A stretch of DNA of 64,000 nucleotides. Origin: Bacteroidales bacterium. Its GTDB lineage: Bacteria; Bacteroidota; Bacteroidia; Bacteroidales; JAADJA01. A program made the position numbers and the translations under genes. The DNA lies in NCBI GenBank assembly GCA_020052415.1, contig JAGVPB010000037.1:62001-126000 (forward strand), read 5' to 3'. Each line of letters opens with the position of its first letter. Positions within the stretch are counted from its first letter, which is position 1. Below, one piece after another: positions 17,767-58,097 of this stretch. The notes below the pieces were generated by a model. That model was not told where the DNA came from and ran no database searches. It saw only the letters and a program-made list of their open reading frames with translations.

Positions 17767-17850
17767 GGTTCGAGGTTCAAGGTTCAAGGTTCAAGGTTGC
17801 TGGTTACTCGTTACTGGTTACTCGTTACTGGTTACTCGTTACTGGTTATT
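17767..17850. repeat. Heptamer array, 12 contiguous 7-bp units
   Basis: Exactly 84 bp in phase: four GGTTCRA units, one GGTTGCT, then alternating GGTTACT and CGTTACT, ending GGTTATT. The first bases of the unit are constant and the last vary. It fills the gap between divIC and nadD with no spacer. Confidence 0.9.
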
Positions 17851-17890: not shown

Positions 17891-18000
17891 CTGCTGCTAC
17901 TGTCGCTGCCACTGCTGCTGCTACATCACTCTATTTCCCCTATTTCCCCTTTTCCATTATTCCATTATTCCACTGTTAAATTATTCCATTATTCCAATCC
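17891..18000. repeat. Triplet (GCT/ACT) and octamer (TTCCATTA) low-complexity tract
   Basis: 17891-17928 is a run of CTG/CTA/ACT/GCC triplets. 17931-17952 repeats CTATTTCCC. 17953-17998 holds TTCCATTA-type octamers. Similar triplet and octamer tracts recur at 56157-56215 and 56381-56412. Together with the heptamer array it fills the 355-bp gap before nadD. Confidence 0.75.
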
Positions 18001-22334: not shown

Positions 22335-22781
22335 TCAGTTCAGGTTTTCAAATTTATCTAAAAGTTTCTGCCAGGTGTATATATCACCGCCATTTTCCTC
22401 CTGAAATTTCATGGCAATTGACTCATCATTAAAAGCGGTCAGAAACATCCCCATCGGACTCGGCATCCCCTGGCTATGAAGGATATGGCTGTGATGGGCA
22501 TCTTCCAGGGTTTCCGGATGATTGAATGGTGTGAGCAAAACAAGTTTAACATTCGATTGTTCGACCTGGCCCTCTTTCAGGTAACGAACCAGGCACTCGA
22601 CTGAATCGAATTTGAAAACTTTTCCTTTGGAAGTCACCAATTCTGTCCCATACCTCTGATCCATAATGATCATTTCGCAATATGCACAACCATCCTGACC
22701 GTAAACAATGGGTTCGGGAACAGATGAACAGGAAGCGAGCAAAAATCCAAAACTGACTATAGTAAATATTTTATTTTTCAT
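22335..22781 (-). CDS. nosL: NosL, copper-binding lipoprotein
   Basis: 148 residues from ATG 22781 (MKNKIFTIVSFGFLLASC), with a lipobox Cys 18. The NosL signature is clear: GQDGCAYCEMIIMDQRYGTE (about 28-47) with the CxYCxM copper site, then KFDSVECLVRYL. NosL binds Cu(I) for N2O reductase assembly. It overlaps the upstream membrane gene by 11 bp; a longer in-frame ATG at 22883 lies within that gene and was not chosen. Confidence 0.95.
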   Translation of the reverse strand: MKNKIFTIVSFGFLLASCSSVPEPIVYGQDGCAYCEMIIMDQRYGTELVTSKGKVFKFDSVECLVRYLKEGQVEQSNVKLVLLTPFNHPETLEDAHHSHILHSQGMPSPMGMFLTAFNDESIAMKFQEENGGDIYTWQKLLDKFENLN

Positions 22782-23358
22782 ATTGAACATCTTTAGGTCT
22801 TTTAAACCAAAAGGCGAAAAAAGCAAAAATGATTGAAATACCAATAAACAGGCTACCCCAAAATGGATAAGAATAAGCTTCAAAATTCAGAAGTAACTTT
22901 TTCCCAAACAATGGAGGCTGGTAAGCCATTCCCGGTACTTTGATTGGAGCCGTGGGTGATAAATTATGGCCATAATCATATTCCCATAGATAAAAATCGT
23001 AAACAGCAAGAATTCCTAAAACAATGACCAGAATCATCCAGGCAAGATAAATCCATTTTTTATTCATGATTGCTGCAAAAAGTCCCAGAAGCATCACTGC
23101 TCCAATTATAAACTTGAAATATTGTAACTCAGGAATTGAATCCGGCACGATCATCTGCATCCCGACATAGTGGTTCAATATATTAATGTTTTGAAGGGTT
23201 CCTGTTGTTTCGCCAGTGATCTGATTGATCCAGATATACATGGTAATACCGGTTGGATATTGAGGTGCGATCAGGGTTATCCTCCAAATCGGAAAAAAGA
23301 AAACCAGAACCATGACTGTTGCGGCTAAAACCATTGATATCCTTGGTATGTTTTTCAT
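22771..23358 (-). CDS. Nos-cluster membrane protein of unknown function
   Basis: 195 residues with four predicted membrane helices (about 8-28, 84-104, 106-124 and 168-188). The long loops are rich in aromatic residues and Pro (QYPTGITMYIWINQITGE; PGMAYQPPLFGKKLLLNFEA). It lies between nosZ and nosL, the place where clade II clusters of other phyla often carry nosB or other membrane genes; whether it is homologous is not decidable here. Its stop overlaps the nosL start, so it probably serves N2O reductase maturation or electron supply. No cofactor motif was seen. Confidence 0.85.
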   Translation of the reverse strand: MKNIPRISMVLAATVMVLVFFFPIWRITLIAPQYPTGITMYIWINQITGETTGTLQNINILNHYVGMQMIVPDSIPELQYFKFIIGAVMLLGLFAAIMNKKWIYLAWMILVIVLGILAVYDFYLWEYDYGHNLSPTAPIKVPGMAYQPPLFGKKLLLNFEAYSYPFWGSLFIGISIIFAFFAFWFKRPKDVQYEK

Positions 23359-23378
23359 TTAATTTAATTTTAAATAAT

Positions 23379-23407
23379 GGTTTCAGCTCCCGACGGGAGC
23401 TGAAACC
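23379..23407 (-). promoter_or_regulatory. Perfect 13-bp hairpin after nosZ
   Basis: 23379-23391 pairs without mismatch with 23395-23407 around a 3-nt loop, starting 9 bp after the nosZ stop. On the minus strand it is followed by an A/T-rich stretch but no T-run. It is therefore more likely an mRNA-stability or attenuation element than a full terminator. Confidence 0.7.
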
Positions 23408-23416
23408 GGAGGCAAC

Positions 23417-25384
23417 TTATTTGGCAGAACCGGTCCACCATTTTAATTTTAAATCAGAACCTTTTTTCGATACCCTTGCATAACCCTGCATTTCCTGGTG
23501 CAACGCTGAACAGAAATCGGTGCAGTAAAAAGGAAATACCCCTTCTGATTTGGGTTCCCATAATAATGTTTCGGTCTGACCCGGCATGATCAGCAATTCG
23601 GCATTGGTCGCACCCATGATTCCGAAACCATGAGGTACATCCCAGTCCTGTTCGAGGTTTGTAACATGAAAATAAACTTTATCGCCTACCTGGAATCCTT
23701 CAATATTATCCGGTGCAAAATGACTGCGGATGGTGGTCATATAAACCCTTACGACATTGCCTTCCCTGACAACCTTAGTCTGATCCTCGCTTTTGGTAAC
23801 ATAAGGATGAGTATTTTCTGCCAGGTTGAAAAACTGTTTTGACTTTGGCTTGATTAAATCAGCCGGAATTCCCTGTCCATAATGCGGCTCACCCACTGTC
23901 GGAAAATCGAGAAGAAGCTGGATTTTATCACCCGAAATGTCATACAATTGGGCTGACTGGTTCATTTCTGGTCCCGTAGGTAAATAACGGTCCTTGGTGA
24001 TCTTGTTCATGGCCAGCATATATTTCCCAAATGGTTTGCGGGAGTCGCCTCCAGGAATCATCAGGTGGCCGACAGAATAATAACACGGCGACCGGTCAAT
24101 CACTTCCCAGGTTCCCACTTTCCATTTTACAATTTCAGAAGAAATAAAGAATGTGGTATATGCATTTCCATTGGCATCAAACTCAGTATGTAACGGGCCG
24201 AGTCCGCCGCTTTTAACCACACCTGCAAGGATAGCATCATAATTCAACACCGGAATACCCTGGATTTCTTTCTCAAAGGCCTTATCTTCAATGGCTTTGA
24301 GCATTTTAGTAAATGAATGTACCGACATGTCGGCAGATAATTTACCAGCTCCGACAATATATTCACCGGTCGGGTCAACATCCACGCCATGCGGAGATTT
24401 TGGTGTCGGGAGATAATAAACCAGGCCAGGGCATTCAGCAGGAATCAAAACCTTTACACTTTTAATTTGCTCAGAAGTTGCCATGTGAGCATTATCATCA
24501 TAAATATTATGATAAAATGAAGTTGGAAAATCATGTGCTTTACCTCCTTTTACATACTCTTCAGCCTTTTTCCAGTTAACCGCTGCAATAAAGTCTTTAT
24601 CGAATTGGGAAGCATTGGCTTCTAAAAGTGTATTGCTTTCTTCAGCATTATAACAGGTAAAAAATGTCCAGCCATGTGAGGCGCCTTTCCCCGAATGAGC
24701 AAGGTCGTAATTAAAAGCGGGAAGCAAAACCTGAAAAGCAACATCCATTTTGCCAGTGACCGGATCGCAGGAGATAAAAGAAAGTGCACCTTTGAAATTT
24801 TCTTTATATGACTCTACCGCTACATCTTTTTGCGGGACAGGTACGCTGAATCGTGTACCCGCAACGACATACTCCGTATTTTCAGTTGTGAAAGGTGAAC
24901 TGTGGTTTCCACCACTATTCGGTAACTCGATAATCTCAACTGTTTCAAATGTTGAAAGATCAATCCGGGCTACGCGCGGGGTATTGTTTCCGTTTATAAA
25001 TATCCAGCGACCATCTGGAATACCTTCTGTCTGGGATAATTCCGGATGATGAGCATCGTCCCAGGGTATAAATCCGTATGATGTCTGAAGTAATGGCTTT
25101 GTTTCTTCATTAAAACCATACCCTTTTTCCGCATCCAGCGAAAAAACGGGAATTACCTTCAGCAATCTGCCTGATGGCAAACCATAAACACTCATCTGTC
25201 CGCTGAAACCTCCGGAAAGAAAAGCATAGAATTCATCATGCTGTCCAGGAGCTACGTAAACTTTCGAAGCTACATCGCTGCTGAAAGGACTCGATTTTTC
25301 ATCCGAACCCTTAGGACTGCATCCCGAAATTAAGAACAGGGCAATGATACCCCATCCGGCTAAAGTAGAATTTTTCATTTTCAT
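23417..25384 (-). CDS. nosZ: Clade II (Sec-dependent) nitrous oxide reductase, predicted lipoprotein
   Basis: 655 residues. The N-terminus is a lipoprotein signal (LFLISGC, Cys 22), not a Tat signal, which marks the clade II form. The central seven-bladed propeller carries the CuZ histidines (for example SGGNHSSPFTTENTEYVV, KSPHGVDVDPTGEYIVGAGK, GLGPLHTEFDANGNAYT). The C-terminal cupredoxin holds CuA: DWDVPHGFGI and YCTDFCSALHQEMQGY (Cys, Cys, His, Met). It reduces N2O to N2 in the periplasm, attached to a membrane. It follows the cytochrome c gene by 25 bp. Confidence 0.98.
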   Translation of the reverse strand: MKMKNSTLAGWGIIALFLISGCSPKGSDEKSSPFSSDVASKVYVAPGQHDEFYAFLSGGFSGQMSVYGLPSGRLLKVIPVFSLDAEKGYGFNEETKPLLQTSYGFIPWDDAHHPELSQTEGIPDGRWIFINGNNTPRVARIDLSTFETVEIIELPNSGGNHSSPFTTENTEYVVAGTRFSVPVPQKDVAVESYKENFKGALSFISCDPVTGKMDVAFQVLLPAFNYDLAHSGKGASHGWTFFTCYNAEESNTLLEANASQFDKDFIAAVNWKKAEEYVKGGKAHDFPTSFYHNIYDDNAHMATSEQIKSVKVLIPAECPGLVYYLPTPKSPHGVDVDPTGEYIVGAGKLSADMSVHSFTKMLKAIEDKAFEKEIQGIPVLNYDAILAGVVKSGGLGPLHTEFDANGNAYTTFFISSEIVKWKVGTWEVIDRSPCYYSVGHLMIPGGDSRKPFGKYMLAMNKITKDRYLPTGPEMNQSAQLYDISGDKIQLLLDFPTVGEPHYGQGIPADLIKPKSKQFFNLAENTHPYVTKSEDQTKVVREGNVVRVYMTTIRSHFAPDNIEGFQVGDKVYFHVTNLEQDWDVPHGFGIMGATNAELLIMPGQTETLLWEPKSEGVFPFYCTDFCSALHQEMQGYARVSKKGSDLKLKWWTGSAK

Positions 25385-25409
25385 TTTGTTCTGTTTTAGT
25401 GTTAGAGAT

Positions 25410-25889
25410 TTATTTCAATGTCCGAAAATATTCAAGAATTTTACGAGCTTCATCCTGGGTGAGATGCTGGTTGGCCATAGGTGCAAGGTTATAATCAATT
25501 AAAAGCTGTTTTGCTATCGGATCACTTTTAACCATTTCCTCAGGATTCAGGATCATGTTCATGATCCATTCAGGCGATCTCCTTTCCATAATGCCCTTTG
25601 GTGCAGGTCCGATAAATTTTTCCTCCGCCTTATGACATGCCGAGCACTTTGCAGTGTAAATTTTTTGTCCTTCATCAACCATTGCCTGATCAAGATTACC
25701 CAAAGTTATGCTTTGAACGGGACCGATCCCCTTGTTTTTCATAGGATCGTTAGAGTTACCTGTAGCATTGGATTCGGATTGTGAACCACCTTCAGATTGT
25801 TTATTATTACTTTCTGATCCGCCACAAGAAGCTAACATGAAGAGTAAAGACAGAATTACAATTCCGTTTAATTTAAAATGTTTTTTCAT
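25410..25889 (-). CDS. Monohaem cytochrome c lipoprotein
   Basis: 159 residues: a lipoprotein signal (LLFMLASC, Cys 22), a Ser/Asn/Gly-rich linker (about 23-50) and a class I cytochrome c domain with CSACH (Cys 82, Cys 85, His 86) and the probable axial Met in NLAPMANQHL (about 138). It is directly upstream of nosZ in the same operon and is the best candidate for its electron donor, as in other clade II clusters. Confidence 0.93.
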   Translation of the reverse strand: MKKHFKLNGIVILSLLFMLASCGGSESNNKQSEGGSQSESNATGNSNDPMKNKGIGPVQSITLGNLDQAMVDEGQKIYTAKCSACHKAEEKFIGPAPKGIMERRSPEWIMNMILNPEEMVKSDPIAKQLLIDYNLAPMANQHLTQDEARKILEYFRTLK

Positions 25890-25922
25890 TTTTTTAAAGT
25901 TTATTAAATTTAAAATTTTATA

Positions 25923-25938
25923 TTTATGTTTTCAATAC
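25923..25938 (-). promoter_or_regulatory. Motif shared with the Rrf2 promoter, upstream of cytochrome c-nosZ
   Basis: The minus-strand GTATTGAAAACATAAATA matches GTATTGAAATACATAAATA upstream of the Rrf2 gene with one base missing. It lies 34-49 bp before the cytochrome c start. No exact TAnnTTTG element accompanies it, and the region is very AT-rich. Confidence 0.35.
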
Positions 25939-25977
25939 TTTTATTCTGATTAAAAAATATCAATACCGGCCTGGAAA

Positions 25978-26502
25978 TTATTTCTTAATCATAAAATAAT
26001 TTTTAAAAATTCCCGGTGAATTTTCCAGGCTCCAAATCAAAAAGCCCTTTTCTTTTACTTTATCCAACAGTGGGGCAGGAAGAAAAGGAGTCGTCAATTC
26101 ATAAATATCTCCCGGATTCCAGTCTTTCAGATCCTGCATAACCTTTGTCAGCGGATGACCGCCCGAAGCAATCATTTCGCCGGCATCAAAGCGTACTTTA
26201 ATTTTATTCGATGAGAACCAATCGGGAGTTTCAGTCTGATGCTCCGGGTTACCTTGTATATTTTCAAGAGTTCCCTGTCCGGTTAAATCCCGCAGCTTAT
26301 TCACGACAACATCCACTGGAAGCTTTCCGATTGCTGCAGCCTGACGTATTGAAGTAACCCTTGCGACTGTTCTTCTTAAAATCGGATTCTGCAGTTTTTT
26401 AAATGCCGGTGCTAAGTCAATCAGAACATTCTCAAGTTCAGGATAGGCATCCAGCAACTCCGCAATTTTTGTGTGAGGTGTAATTATCAGTTTCGTTTCC
26501 AT
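25978..26502 (-). CDS. DUF1858/DUF2249 two-domain protein
   Basis: 174 residues. The N-terminal DUF1858-like part (about 1-75: TKIAELLDAYPELENVLIDL, NPILRRTVARVTSIRQAA) is followed by a C-terminal DUF2249 domain (about 98-174: VRFDAGEMIASGGHPLTKVM, GDIYELTTPFLPAPLLD). Such proteins accompany denitrification and NO-response genes and resemble SirA/TusA-like folds; the biochemical role is unproven. It is 5 bp from the DUF438 gene, so the two are co-transcribed. Confidence 0.87.
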   Translation of the reverse strand: METKLIITPHTKIAELLDAYPELENVLIDLAPAFKKLQNPILRRTVARVTSIRQAAAIGKLPVDVVVNKLRDLTGQGTLENIQGNPEHQTETPDWFSSNKIKVRFDAGEMIASGGHPLTKVMQDLKDWNPGDIYELTTPFLPAPLLDKVKEKGFLIWSLENSPGIFKNYFMIKK

Positions 26503-26507
26503 CTCTG

Positions 26508-27743
26508 TTAGTTTTTGTATGATAAAATGCGTTGTTCGCCTTCAAGTTTCCGCTTGTCCGATAAATTCTGAGAGACCTCTAAAGTGCCGAGGTATTCACC
26601 CTTCTCATCCCTGAGTGCGAAATATTCAATGTGTATGAACTGATCCTGCTTTTGAATCCAGAAAGGAGCACTGTCCTGCCTTCCACTTTTAAAATCGTCC
26701 ACAATCTGATTAACAATATGAACGCTCGAAGGCGGATGACACATTCGAACATCACGGTTAAGGATCGCCCTGTTTCGCTGAAATATTCTTTCTTTTCCCT
26801 GTGAAAAATATTTTACCTTGTCATTCCTGTCAACAAAAGTTATATCAACCGGAAGCGTGTTTAAAATTGCATGAAGTTCTTCATTTGTAAAGCTACCCGT
26901 GTGAAGTTGGATTTGTTCGTTATCGGTTTTCACCATGCTGGTCAAATCAATAATTCCTGGTTTCCATTCGGCTGGAGGATCGTAAAGGCAATAACCTATT
27001 TCATTGGTTTGACGCGCTATCTGATACCAGTCGCTGTCAGTAAGCTTGTCCATACACATAGGGAATAAAATTTCTTCCTCTTTCATGGTCATATCGGCGA
27101 TTCCGGTAGTAGCAGGTTTAAATATCATTTCTGTCAGAGCACGGGCTTCACCTGGTGTAACTGGTTCACGGAAAGAGAGAGTTTCTGTTGCGCTTTTCAG
27201 CATTTCGCGCACTTCGTCATGCTTTCCCCACATTACTTTCGGTGGTCCGGTTATTCCAATTTTTTCGAGGTACGGAAACAGCAGGTTTTCCTTACGCTGA
27301 TAATGCTTATCCACATCCGTCAGGTTATTGAAAAGCTGATGAAGTTTTAATAATACCTCATTTACCTTTTCCTGAGATGAAGTTGCTTCTAAATCCTTGT
27401 ATAAAATTTCACATTGTTCTATGACTTTTTTTAATTCGTCGTTCTCATGAATAAATACATCCACGGGATGACCTTCAGGTATTTCCTGAGCAGACGAATG
27501 ATCAATGTGACCCTCCAGCGCCAGGGTATGCAGGTCACAAAATTTCAGTACTTCTTCATCGCTGAGAATACCGTCTGAAATCAGGGCTTGCTCAACTTCC
27601 ACAACCTCTCCGTAAGGAATCTTCGACATCAGTCGGATCAGCTGATTCCGCACCTCATCCGGGGCTTCCCCCTTATGAAGTTGCAGGATCATGTGTTTTA
27701 GCAGTTCCTTTCGCTTTTCAGAATTATTAATTAGTTCACTCAT
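26508..27743 (-). CDS. DUF438-hemerythrin-PAS protein (NO/O2 response)
   Basis: 411 residues: DUF438 (about 1-80), a hemerythrin-like four-helix domain (about 88-230: HPVDVFIHENDEL, DKHYQRKENLLFPYLE, WGKHDEVREML, MTMKEEEILFPM) with His and Glu residues suited to a di-iron site, and a C-terminal PAS domain (about 285-405: FVDRNDKVKYFSQGKERIF, HIEYFALRDEKGEYLGTLE). It probably binds O2 or NO and supports repair of iron-sulfur or di-iron centres, or senses. It begins a small operon with the DUF2249 gene; an NsrR-like half-site sits in its upstream region. Confidence 0.9.
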   Translation of the reverse strand: MSELINNSEKRKELLKHMILQLHKGEAPDEVRNQLIRLMSKIPYGEVVEVEQALISDGILSDEEVLKFCDLHTLALEGHIDHSSAQEIPEGHPVDVFIHENDELKKVIEQCEILYKDLEATSSQEKVNEVLLKLHQLFNNLTDVDKHYQRKENLLFPYLEKIGITGPPKVMWGKHDEVREMLKSATETLSFREPVTPGEARALTEMIFKPATTGIADMTMKEEEILFPMCMDKLTDSDWYQIARQTNEIGYCLYDPPAEWKPGIIDLTSMVKTDNEQIQLHTGSFTNEELHAILNTLPVDITFVDRNDKVKYFSQGKERIFQRNRAILNRDVRMCHPPSSVHIVNQIVDDFKSGRQDSAPFWIQKQDQFIHIEYFALRDEKGEYLGTLEVSQNLSDKRKLEGEQRILSYKN

Positions 27744-27760
27744 TTTTATTAACTTTTATT

Positions 27761-27771
27761 AAATACATTTT
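27761..27771 (-). promoter_or_regulatory. NsrR-like half-site upstream of the DUF438 gene
   Basis: The minus strand reads AAAATGTATTT, 10 of 11 matches to the enterobacterial NsrR half-site AAGATGYATTT. It lies 18-28 bp before the ATG. A TTAATTTG (one mismatch to TAnnTTTG) lies just upstream. Confidence 0.4.
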
Positions 27772-27790
27772 ACTATCAAATTAATTCAGA

Positions 27791-27950
27791 TTCCAATTTT
27801 CCATCATCCCATTTTTCCATCATTCCATTCTTCCAGTATTCCAGTATTCCATCCTTCCATTCTTCCATCATTCCATTCTTCCATTATTCCATCATTCCAT
27901 TTTTCCATTTTTCCATTTTTCCATCCTTCCAATATTCCATTCTTCCTATT
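27791..27950. repeat. Octamer array, 20 contiguous 8-bp units (TTCCATTC family)
   Basis: 160 bp in exact 8-bp phase, consensus TTCCATNN, with TTCCAGTA and TTCCAATA variants. It forms the 3' end of the YgbA-like gene and its downstream flank. Eight is not a multiple of three, so a frame meets the same codon only every 24 nt, and the minus strand yields an octapeptide repeat. Confidence 0.92.
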
Positions 27951-28253
27951 ATACTTATCCATCAAATGCATCAACGCAAGATATGGGTGCTCAATGGTCA
28001 TGCGCGGTCCTGAATACCGCATTACTTCCCGAATCCTGTTCCTCAACTCCGGCTTGTAACAATGTACCGGACATCTTGCACATACCGGTTTATCATTTCC
28101 AAATCTGCAGTTTTCAGTTCTTTTTTCCGAATATTCGAGCAGATGTTTGCAGTCTTCACAGAATTCCAATTTTGGATGATGGACTTTCCTGCAATGCATT
28201 CTGATCATAGTCTTGATGGTTTTCTGTTCCCGGATAATTCTTTTTGTTCTCAC
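27804..28253 (-). CDS. YgbA-like nitrous oxide-stimulated-promoter family protein with repeat-encoded tail
   Basis: 149 residues from GTG 28253, which overlaps the preceding gene by 4 bp (GTGA). Residues 1-100 match the YgbA_NO family: VKHMIRMHC-like start (KTIKTMIRMHCRKVHH), CEDC (32-35), CARCPVHCYKPELRNRIREV (58-77) and GPRMTIEHPYLALMHL. The Cys pattern suggests metal binding. Residues about 102-149 come from the octamer array and read as eight-residue units (GIMEEWND, GRMEGWNT, GILEEWND). E. coli ygbA is an NsrR target induced by NO, which fits this location. Confidence 0.85.
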   Translation of the reverse strand: MRTKRIIREQKTIKTMIRMHCRKVHHPKLEFCEDCKHLLEYSEKRTENCRFGNDKPVCARCPVHCYKPELRNRIREVMRYSGPRMTIEHPYLALMHLMDKYNRKNGILEGWKNGKMEKWNDGIMEEWNDGRMEGWNTGILEEWNDGKMG

Positions 28254-50956: not shown

Positions 50957-51004
50957 AACATTAATAGCTTAAACGGCGGGTAAGTTATAAAATTGTAGAG
51001 TAAG

Positions 51005-51172
51005 GTTCTGAGTTCCGGGTTCCGGGTTCCGGGTTCTGAGTTCTGAGTTCTCAGTTCCGTGTCTGTGACGGAAATCTAATATCTTATTTCTAATTTCTAA
51101 TATCAAATTTCTAATTTCTCAAGCCCCATGTCTCATATCTAAATACTAAATACTTTATACTAAAGACTCACC
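51005..51172. repeat. Heptamer array, 24 units in one phase (GTTCYGR then TCTAATW)
   Basis: 168 bp, exactly 24 x 7. 51005-51060 holds eight GTTCCGG/GTTCTGA units. 51061-51074 holds two degenerate units. 51075-51172 holds fourteen units of TCTAATA/TCTAATT changing gradually to ACTAAAT. Phase never breaks between subfamilies. It fills most of the 302-bp divergent region. Confidence 0.9.
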
Positions 51173-54654: not shown

Positions 54655-55992
54655 ATGAATTTGGAAAAAATAATGAATGACCTTGAAAAGAAACACCCCG
54701 GTGAGGTGGAGTATTTGCAGGCTGTAAGAGAAGTTTTAGAATCTATTGAAGAAGTTGTGAATCAGAATCCGCAGTTCGAAACTGCCGGGATTATTGACCG
54801 GCTTATAGAACCGGATCGAATTTTAACTTTTAAAATACCCTGGATTAACGATAACGGCGTAGTCAATGTAAACCTGGGTTACAGAGTGCAGTTCAACAAT
54901 GCTTTGGGTCCATACAAAGGAGGACTGAGGTTTCACCCGAGCGTTAACCTGAGTATTCTGAAATTTCTGGGGTTTGAACAGATATTTAAAAATAGTTTAA
55001 CTACGCTGCCGATTGGAGGAGGAAAGGGTGGATCTGACTTCAATCCCAAAGGGAAATCGGATGCGGAGATCATGCGTTTTTGCCAGTCGTTCATGCTTGA
55101 GTTATGGAAGATCATTGGTCCTGAGATGGACGTTCCGGCCGGAGATATAGGAGTCGGTGGAAAAGAAATAGGATTCCTGTACGGCATGTATAAAAAACTC
55201 ACACATGAACATCATGGAGTCCTGACAGGTAAAGGACTTGCATGGGGAGGCAGTCTGATCCGTCCGGAAGCTACCGGTTTCGGAGCCGTTTACTTTGCAC
55301 ATGAAATGCTGGCAACAAAGGGTGAAACCTTCAAAGGTAAAAATGTATGTGTTTCAGGTTTCGGGAATGTATGCTGGGGAGCAATCACTAAAGTGAATGA
55401 GCTTGGTGGTAAAGTTGTCACCATTTCTGGACCCGACGGATATATCCATGATGAGGCAGGCATTTCGGGAAATAAAATAGAATACCTTCTCGAACTCAGG
55501 GCTTCGAACCAGGATATTGTAAAGCCTTATATTTACGAATTTCCTGATGCCAAGTTTATACCCAATAAGCGTCCCTGGGAAGTGAAGTGTGATGTTGCAA
55601 TTCCGTGTGCGACTCAAAACGAACTGGATGATAATGATGCTAAGGCTCTTGTTAAGAATGGATGTATATGCGTTGCCGAAGGAGCCAACATGCCTTCCAC
55701 TCCTGCTGCCGTTGAAGTATTCCATGAAAACAGGATCATGTTCGGACCGGGTAAGGCTGTAAATGCCGGCGGCGTTGCTACTTCCGGGCTCGAAATGTCG
55801 CAGAATGCTATGAAACTCAACTGGCCAAGCGAAGAGGTTGACGAAAGGCTGCATCATATCATGAAGAGCATTCATAATACCTGTGTAAAACACGGTAAGG
55901 AAAGCGACGGATATGTGAATTATGTTAAAGGAGCCAACGTTGCCGGCTTCCTAAAAGTAGCAAATGCGATGCTGGACCAGGGGGTGATTTAG
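54655..55992 (+). CDS. gdhA: Glutamate dehydrogenase (NADP-type)
   Basis: 445 residues, the hexameric short form. Motifs: YKGGLRFHPSVNLSILKFLGFEQ, the catalytic region LPIGGGKGGSDFNPKGKSDA (Lys about 124-126), PAGDIGVGGKEIGFLYG, Rossmann loop CVSGFGNVCWGAITK and ANAGGVATSGLEMSQNA. It makes glutamate from 2-oxoglutarate and ammonia. The last base of its TAG is the first base of a heptamer array. Confidence 0.97.
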   Translation: MNLEKIMNDLEKKHPGEVEYLQAVREVLESIEEVVNQNPQFETAGIIDRLIEPDRILTFKIPWINDNGVVNVNLGYRVQFNNALGPYKGGLRFHPSVNLSILKFLGFEQIFKNSLTTLPIGGGKGGSDFNPKGKSDAEIMRFCQSFMLELWKIIGPEMDVPAGDIGVGGKEIGFLYGMYKKLTHEHHGVLTGKGLAWGGSLIRPEATGFGAVYFAHEMLATKGETFKGKNVCVSGFGNVCWGAITKVNELGGKVVTISGPDGYIHDEAGISGNKIEYLLELRASNQDIVKPYIYEFPDAKFIPNKRPWEVKCDVAIPCATQNELDDNDAKALVKNGCICVAEGANMPSTPAAVEVFHENRIMFGPGKAVNAGGVATSGLEMSQNAMKLNWPSEEVDERLHHIMKSIHNTCVKHGKESDGYVNYVKGANVAGFLKVANAMLDQGVI

Positions 55993-56412
55993 TTCAAGGT
56001 TTAAAGTTCAAGGTTTAAGGTTGGGTGTGGGCGATGGTCATGAGCATGATGGGTTCATGAGGATTGTTGGTGGTTACTTGTGACTGGTTACTTGCGACCG
56101 GTTACTGATTCAGAGTTCTGAGTTATTTGCCAATTGCTCTCGCCTTTGGCGAGACCGACTGCTCATTGCCACTACCGCTGCCACTGCTACTACCACTGCC
56201 GCTGCCGCTTTTGCTCCAAATACCTTTTTCTGTTTTATGTTAAGTGTTTGATGTTTAATATTATTTCAGCTACTACTGCTGTGTCAGGTTGAGTGTGGGG
56301 CGATAGTCTTGAGTATGACTGTTTTATGATCGTTGTTGCTGGTTGCTTGTAGTTCCATGTTTGACCGAAGCGGAACACTATTCTACTATTCCATTATCCC
56401 ATCATTCCATGA
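55992..56412. repeat. Compound repeat region between gdhA and rlmD
   Basis: 55992-56026: five heptamers GTTCAAG/GTTTAAA/GTTGGGT. 56073-56135: nine heptamers GTTACTT, GTGACTG, GCGACCG, ATTCAGA, GTTCTGA and similar. 56134-56161: 28-bp hairpin cassette identical to the reverse complement of 39216-39243. 56157-56215: ACT/GCC/GCT triplets. 56381-56412: octamers TTCCATTA and similar. No gene fits in the 456-bp gap. Confidence 0.85.
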
Positions 56413-57918: not shown

Positions 57919-58097
57919 GTTCCGGGTTCTGAGTTCCGGGTTCTGAGTTCAGGGTTCAGAGTTGGTCATTGCCGAATGCCGACTGGTTACTGGTTACTGG
58001 TTACTGGTTACTGGTTCCGGGTTCAGAGTTCTGAGTTCCGGGTTAAAAAATTTAGAGTAAGAGCAAATTTCCAATATCTAATATCTAATTTCCCATC
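57919..58097. repeat. Heptamer array upstream of the AddA-like gene
   Basis: 57919-57967: GTTCCGG, GTTCTGA, GTTCCGG, GTTCTGA, GTTCAGG, GTTCAGA, GTTGGTC. 57986-58041: four GTTACTG then GTTCCGG, GTTCAGA, GTTCTGA, GTTCCGG after one 4-bp phase change. 58077-58097: TCTAATA, TCTAATT, TCCCATC. All frames are stop-free on the plus strand. Confidence 0.9.

Follow-up and report, generated by a model that had tools for sequence, protein, structure and literature searches.

A YgbA-like protein encoded in the window, a 64,000-nucleotide stretch of contig C41 in a 4.67-Mb draft genome of a Bacteroidales bacterium, probably carries a 48-residue repetitive C-terminal tail that, judged from the reading frame, is encoded by an array of 8-bp repeats and ended by a stop codon supplied by the repeat. 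We consider it likely that an intergenic octamer array overran or erased the stop codon of ygbA, with the tail as a tolerated, non-adaptive by-product. The features that carry this reading are the following.

28253 to 27804, minus strand: ygbA-like open reading frame (ORF), GTG start, 149 amino acids, residues 102-149 repeat-encoded
27791 to 27950, minus strand: octamer array, 20 units, sense consensus NNNTGGAA, exact TGGAA core in 18 units
27807 to 27950, minus strand: translated portion of these repeats, 18 units or 48 codons, residues 102-149
27806 to 27804, minus strand: stop codon TGA, formed by bases 1-3 of unit 19 (TGATGGAA)
27943 to 27957, minus strand: junction TAAGTATAATAGGAA, whose other frame reads TAA GTA TAA TAG just before the array, where short homologues stop

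Tandem Repeats Finder called the array at 27790-27952 with a period of 8, 20.2 copies and 77% matches, and the longest period-8 run of TTCCA was 16 in the window, whereas it did not exceed 2 in 200 Markov resamples. After 101 codons the array is entered in register at codon 102 (position 27950), its first units being AATAGGAA, GAATGGAA, TATTGGAA and GGATGGAA, in that order, and the 20 units end at 27791. Since three 8-bp units make 24 nt, translation passes through all three phases and yields a series of octapeptides, exactly as the first-pass annotation of this DNA had described. The same annotation had taken all twenty octamers as the end of the gene; the twenty units are there, but only 18 are translated, and the ORF ends inside the array at the stop from unit 19. 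As a matter of sequence logic, if the TGGAA cores are perfect, the only stop-capable codon in each 24-nt period is the NNN triplet of every third unit. In the ygbA frame these positions read GGA, AAA, GAA, GGA and GAA and then, in unit 19, TGA; the remaining two sense frames hit stops earlier within the array. The predicted tryptic peptides of the junction and tail include WNDGIMEEWNDGR and NGILEGWK.

The conserved part of the protein is intact. YgbA_NO (Pfam PF11756) matched residues 4-104 with 132.4 bits against a curated cut-off of 25, which places the protein in the family and agrees with the earlier claim that the domain ends near residue 100. All 34 otherwise-invariant columns of an 8-sequence genus alignment and all 19 of a 36-sequence alignment were preserved, including C21, C32, C35, C58, C61, H64 and C65. 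YgbA was present in 8 of 17 genomes of the genus, and the other seven proteins all stop 0-20 residues beyond the domain, with unrelated short ends. For a wider comparison we took 80 named relatives spread over many phyla, and a simple rule sufficed to read 55 of them: 84 residues follow the CPVHC motif here, compared to a median of 46 and a maximum of 65 in these 55. A short C-terminus is usual in YgbA, though not defining, and the departure from it leaves domain membership unaffected. Neither a repeat tail nor an equally long C-terminus was found among the homologues read (7 genus relatives and 55 named relatives), which answers the question that the first-pass annotation had raised about where homologues stop. 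One sequence, at locus L118, appeared to match the tail as far as residue 149; its ORF has a normal stop, however, the extension falls outside the gene, and the match was rejected.

The array belongs to a dispersed family. In the same genome we found 23 octamer arrays of at least 4 units (sense NNNTGGAA) and 100 four-unit windows, with none in the control in either case. These arrays were examined in the regions around each of them, with crude longest-ORF gene calls in the positional tests and with one duplicated contig region (L060) excluded from the statistics. Nearly all were intergenic. Arrays with TGGAA in sense lay 7-31 bp past a stop codon in 11 of 14 flanks, versus 2 of 10 for the TTCCA sense (Fisher p = 0.011); the gaps after stops were 7, 7, 7, 10, 10, 13, 21, 23, 25, 30, 31 bp and beyond for the former and mostly at least 98 bp for the latter (Mann-Whitney p = 0.003). 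A second, shorter array of the family lies in the window itself (17952-17996, TGGAA sense, 30 bp from a gene stop). Arrays of seven units occurred in 11 of 295 genomes of the order; thus, the family is patchy. No published description of the NNNTGGAA octamer was found in the literature searched.

Overlap with gene ends recurs in G264, a distant Bacteroidales genome from another family, for which all four-unit figures hold among the matches listed. Arrays after stops were TGGAA-sense in 27 cases and TTCCA-sense in 6 (p = 0.0003). Furthermore, for at least three G264 genes the stop codon lies within an array and is provided by one of its units (...CCGTTTATGATGGAA-TGA, ...CTGGAAATAGTGGAA-TAA and ...AATGGAAGAATGGAA-TGA), giving the C-termini ...FMME-TGA, ...LEIVE-TAA and ...ENGRME-TGA. 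The third of these genes encodes an amidohydrolase of 549 residues, in which the Pfam domain extends to residue 543 and is followed by NGRME, a peptide of the type found in the ygbA tail. In light of these genes, the overlap is a recurrent one, with ygbA at its long end.

Taken together, the events at ygbA may be pictured as follows. The array would be one copy of a degenerate octamer family that is dispersed between the genes of this Bacteroidales genome and prefers sites just 3' of stop codons, TGGAA being on the sense strand. It would have reached into the 3' end of ygbA by expansion or by recombination, and the native stop would thereby have been removed or bypassed. Translation would then run on into the array until the first in-phase NNN is TGA or TAA, which is the case in unit 19. 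The outcome would be a low-complexity tail whose length is set by the order and number of the units and which is most likely neutral; it looks like an accident of repeat location and not like a new function. The earlier proposal that an intergenic repeat was captured as protein holds up in that the family is mostly intergenic and the homologues have no tail, and is weakened in that an open frame this long arose in 21% of random unit orders and that a one-base frameshift may hide the native stop.

The junction allows a second explanation. The TAA/TAA/TAG cluster in its other frame is possibly, judged by its position, the remnant of the native ygbA stop, and this stop (TAA or TAG in TAAGTATAATAGGAA) could have been pushed out of frame by a one-base insertion or deletion, either real or an assembly error. 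The array would then merely lie 3' of the gene, and the tail would be an artefact or the product of a recent frameshift. We regard this main rival as unlikely. A one-base change would explain the tail equally simply, the cluster sits where homologues of 100-104 amino acids stop, and stops abut the array edge elsewhere in the genome as well (TAAGGAAT, at loci L047 and L052). But DKYNRKN, as read in the present frame, is similar to DKFRNKN in the homologue from G009, the junction has no long homopolymer, and the G264 genes that end inside arrays need no such shift.

Four points weigh against an overrun stop as we propose it. The stop cluster in the other frame fits a single-base insertion or deletion as well as it fits stop loss. 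In G264, nearness to the stop taken alone was not significant (p = 0.19, among the matches listed). In a further genome, G171, the arrays consist of stop-free units such as CACTGGAA and show no stop-proximal sense pattern. Finally, the ygbA case rests on one draft genome.

Is the tail under selection? In the 23 arrays of the genome, the triplet before TGGAA was a stop (TGA, TAA or TAG) in 73 of 195 units (37%), and the chance of five open in-phase units drawn from this pool is about 0.10. When the order of the array's own units was shuffled, 21% of the shuffles gave a protein of at least 149 amino acids; therefore, the openness and length of the tail are no sign of coding selection. Tail-like translations of the other arrays contained stops in most cases. 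In silico, deletion of one unit gave a protein of 117, 125, 141 or 154 residues, duplication of one unit gave 125 or 161, and changes of three units shifted the length by 8 residues up or down, in line with the first-pass prediction that a change in unit number would alter the tail length and sometimes the stop. Since these simulated changes never touch the YgbA domain, they do not make an on/off switch. AlphaFold2 (36-sequence alignment) gave helices up to residue 104 and a pLDDT (predicted local distance difference test) below 50 at residues 110-149, and the tail is thus predicted to be disordered. A contingency tail of variable length that tunes YgbA might be imagined, because every residue that is invariant in relatives is present, 48 residues remain open, and simulated unit changes give graded lengths. 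Yet such openness is expected in about a fifth of shuffles, other arrays mostly hold stops in the same translation, the tail is predicted to be disordered, no relative has one, and the insertions and deletions alter the tail alone; we regard a functional tail as highly improbable. A hit to a cyclophane RiPP (ribosomally synthesized and post-translationally modified peptide) model of NCBIfam reached 20.2 bits against a cut-off of 31 and was rejected as low-complexity similarity.

The next gene downstream of ygbA allows the spacer to be compared between species.

26508 to 27743, minus strand: gene for a DUF438, hemerythrin and PAS protein, same orientation as ygbA, start 47 bp past the array

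The order ygbA followed by the DUF438/hemerythrin gene was found in 6 of the 7 genus relatives with ygbA. The downstream protein was 66-78% identical in five of them; in G006, only the first 43 residues matched. The spacer ranged from -4 to 186 bp. In G005, TGGAA octamers directly follow the TAA of ygbA, with an inverted TTCCA arm later on, so that spacer octamers exist in two species. In most genus relatives, an octamer array is absent from the corresponding place.

The array could also be an element that acts on RNA or DNA at the 3' end of genes, as a spacer, in mRNA 3' protection or in termination, with the ygbA tail as an incidental overlap. This is compatible with the explanation that we prefer, but we consider it rather doubtful. 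It would account for the sense bias after stops, which is also reported for G-rich heptamers near stops (PMC4692102), and all 17 neighbouring arm pairs of G264 (loci L170-L205, among the matches listed) are inverted, with a TGGAA arm followed by a TTCCA arm, and are hairpin-capable. These pairs often begin right after a stop and form an element of two arms whose spacers show no conserved pairing. Against such a role, the stem spacers were not complementary beyond permuted controls (mean z 0.18), the ygbA array is one-armed with a weak fold (-7 kcal/mol), no terminator was predicted within it, and most genus relatives have no array at this place. An RNA hairpin kept by compensatory spacers was accordingly rejected, the 17 G264 pairs being no more stable than their spacer-permuted controls (among the matches listed). 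More speculatively still, the octamers may be portable 3'-end cassettes, stop-bearing and sense-oriented. In several lineages of Bacteroidales they would lodge at the ends of genes, exert an effect on the 3' ends of mRNAs and, as the stop shifts from one unit to another, change protein C-termini time and again.

The nearest precedent is the GGGAATC / GGGGA(C/T)T heptamers of Xanthomonas and Nostoc, which are degenerate, dispersed and mostly intergenic and lie on the coding strand less than 50 bp past the stop, with the G-rich strand in sense and some overlapping the stop (PMC4692102). The octamers are likewise dispersed and mostly non-coding and, in TGGAA sense, lie mostly within 50 bp past stops in their own genome, with G264 agreeing in orientation only. 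The unit is 8 instead of 7 bp, and here the units carry TGA or TAA and form a 20-unit array. As far as the sequence goes, the octamers hold GG, with GGG in one variant unit, so that no strong G-quadruplex is expected, and we do not file them in the heptamer family. The TAACTGA heptamers of Beggiatoaceae, Cyanobacteria and some Bacteroidetes are intergenic and sometimes overlap gene ends; they encode stops in one orientation, and reverse arrays give a peptide repeat near protein termini (PMC4679880). They differ in sequence, lie mostly upstream of start codons and have one fixed unit. The tandem repeats of Borgs occur between genes and in ORFs, where they encode disordered peptide repeats, but all in-ORF units are multiples of three (PMC9879509), unlike the degenerate ygbA octamer with its unit of 8. 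BrickBuilt of Porphyromonas gingivalis is a dispersed intergenic minisatellite MITE (miniature inverted-repeat transposable element) in a Bacteroidales genome; unlike the octamers, it has 23-bp units with a defined leader and tail ends, is always intergenic and is not read into proteins (PMC4596501).

At its 5' end, the ygbA ORF shares four bases with the end of an upstream amidotransferase gene. A nitrous oxide reductase cluster (NosL, a nos_propeller NosZ-like protein, cytochrome c and DUF1858) adjoins ygbA and the DUF438/hemerythrin gene (22335-28253, minus strand), which agrees with the family name of YgbA, nitrous oxide-stimulated promoter.

Other repeats were seen in the window and beside octamer arrays. 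Tandem arrays of 7 or 14 bp (GGTTACT, GTTCCGG and TCTAATT types) lie at 17767-17848, 51004-51119, 55991-56106 and 57919-58023, and heptamer-like repeats occur beside octamer arrays elsewhere too. Next to octamer arrays at L049, L051 and L056 lies a hairpin-like motif, TGCCAAAGGCACTCCTTTGGAGGAA; it was rejected as a common mobile element, as just two copies within 3 mismatches were present in the genome. No known RNA family matched within the ygbA array; the sole non-tRNA match was the Rfam DUF805b RNA (RF02914), just over its gathering score at L047 3171-3203 (plus strand), adjoining another array. At L059 and L060 (G000 C87:48600-54700 and C87:75200-81300), one set of genes and an array are present in two copies of opposite orientation on a single contig, reflecting either a genuine inverted duplication or a fold-back in the assembly.

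The ygbA array shows clearly how noncoding repeat DNA can turn into protein through an out-of-phase 8-bp unit, the stop included. Gene callers will report such repeat tails as protein. If strains differ in unit number, they would provide a natural series for studying the amount of superfluous C-terminal sequence that a small conserved protein can bear.
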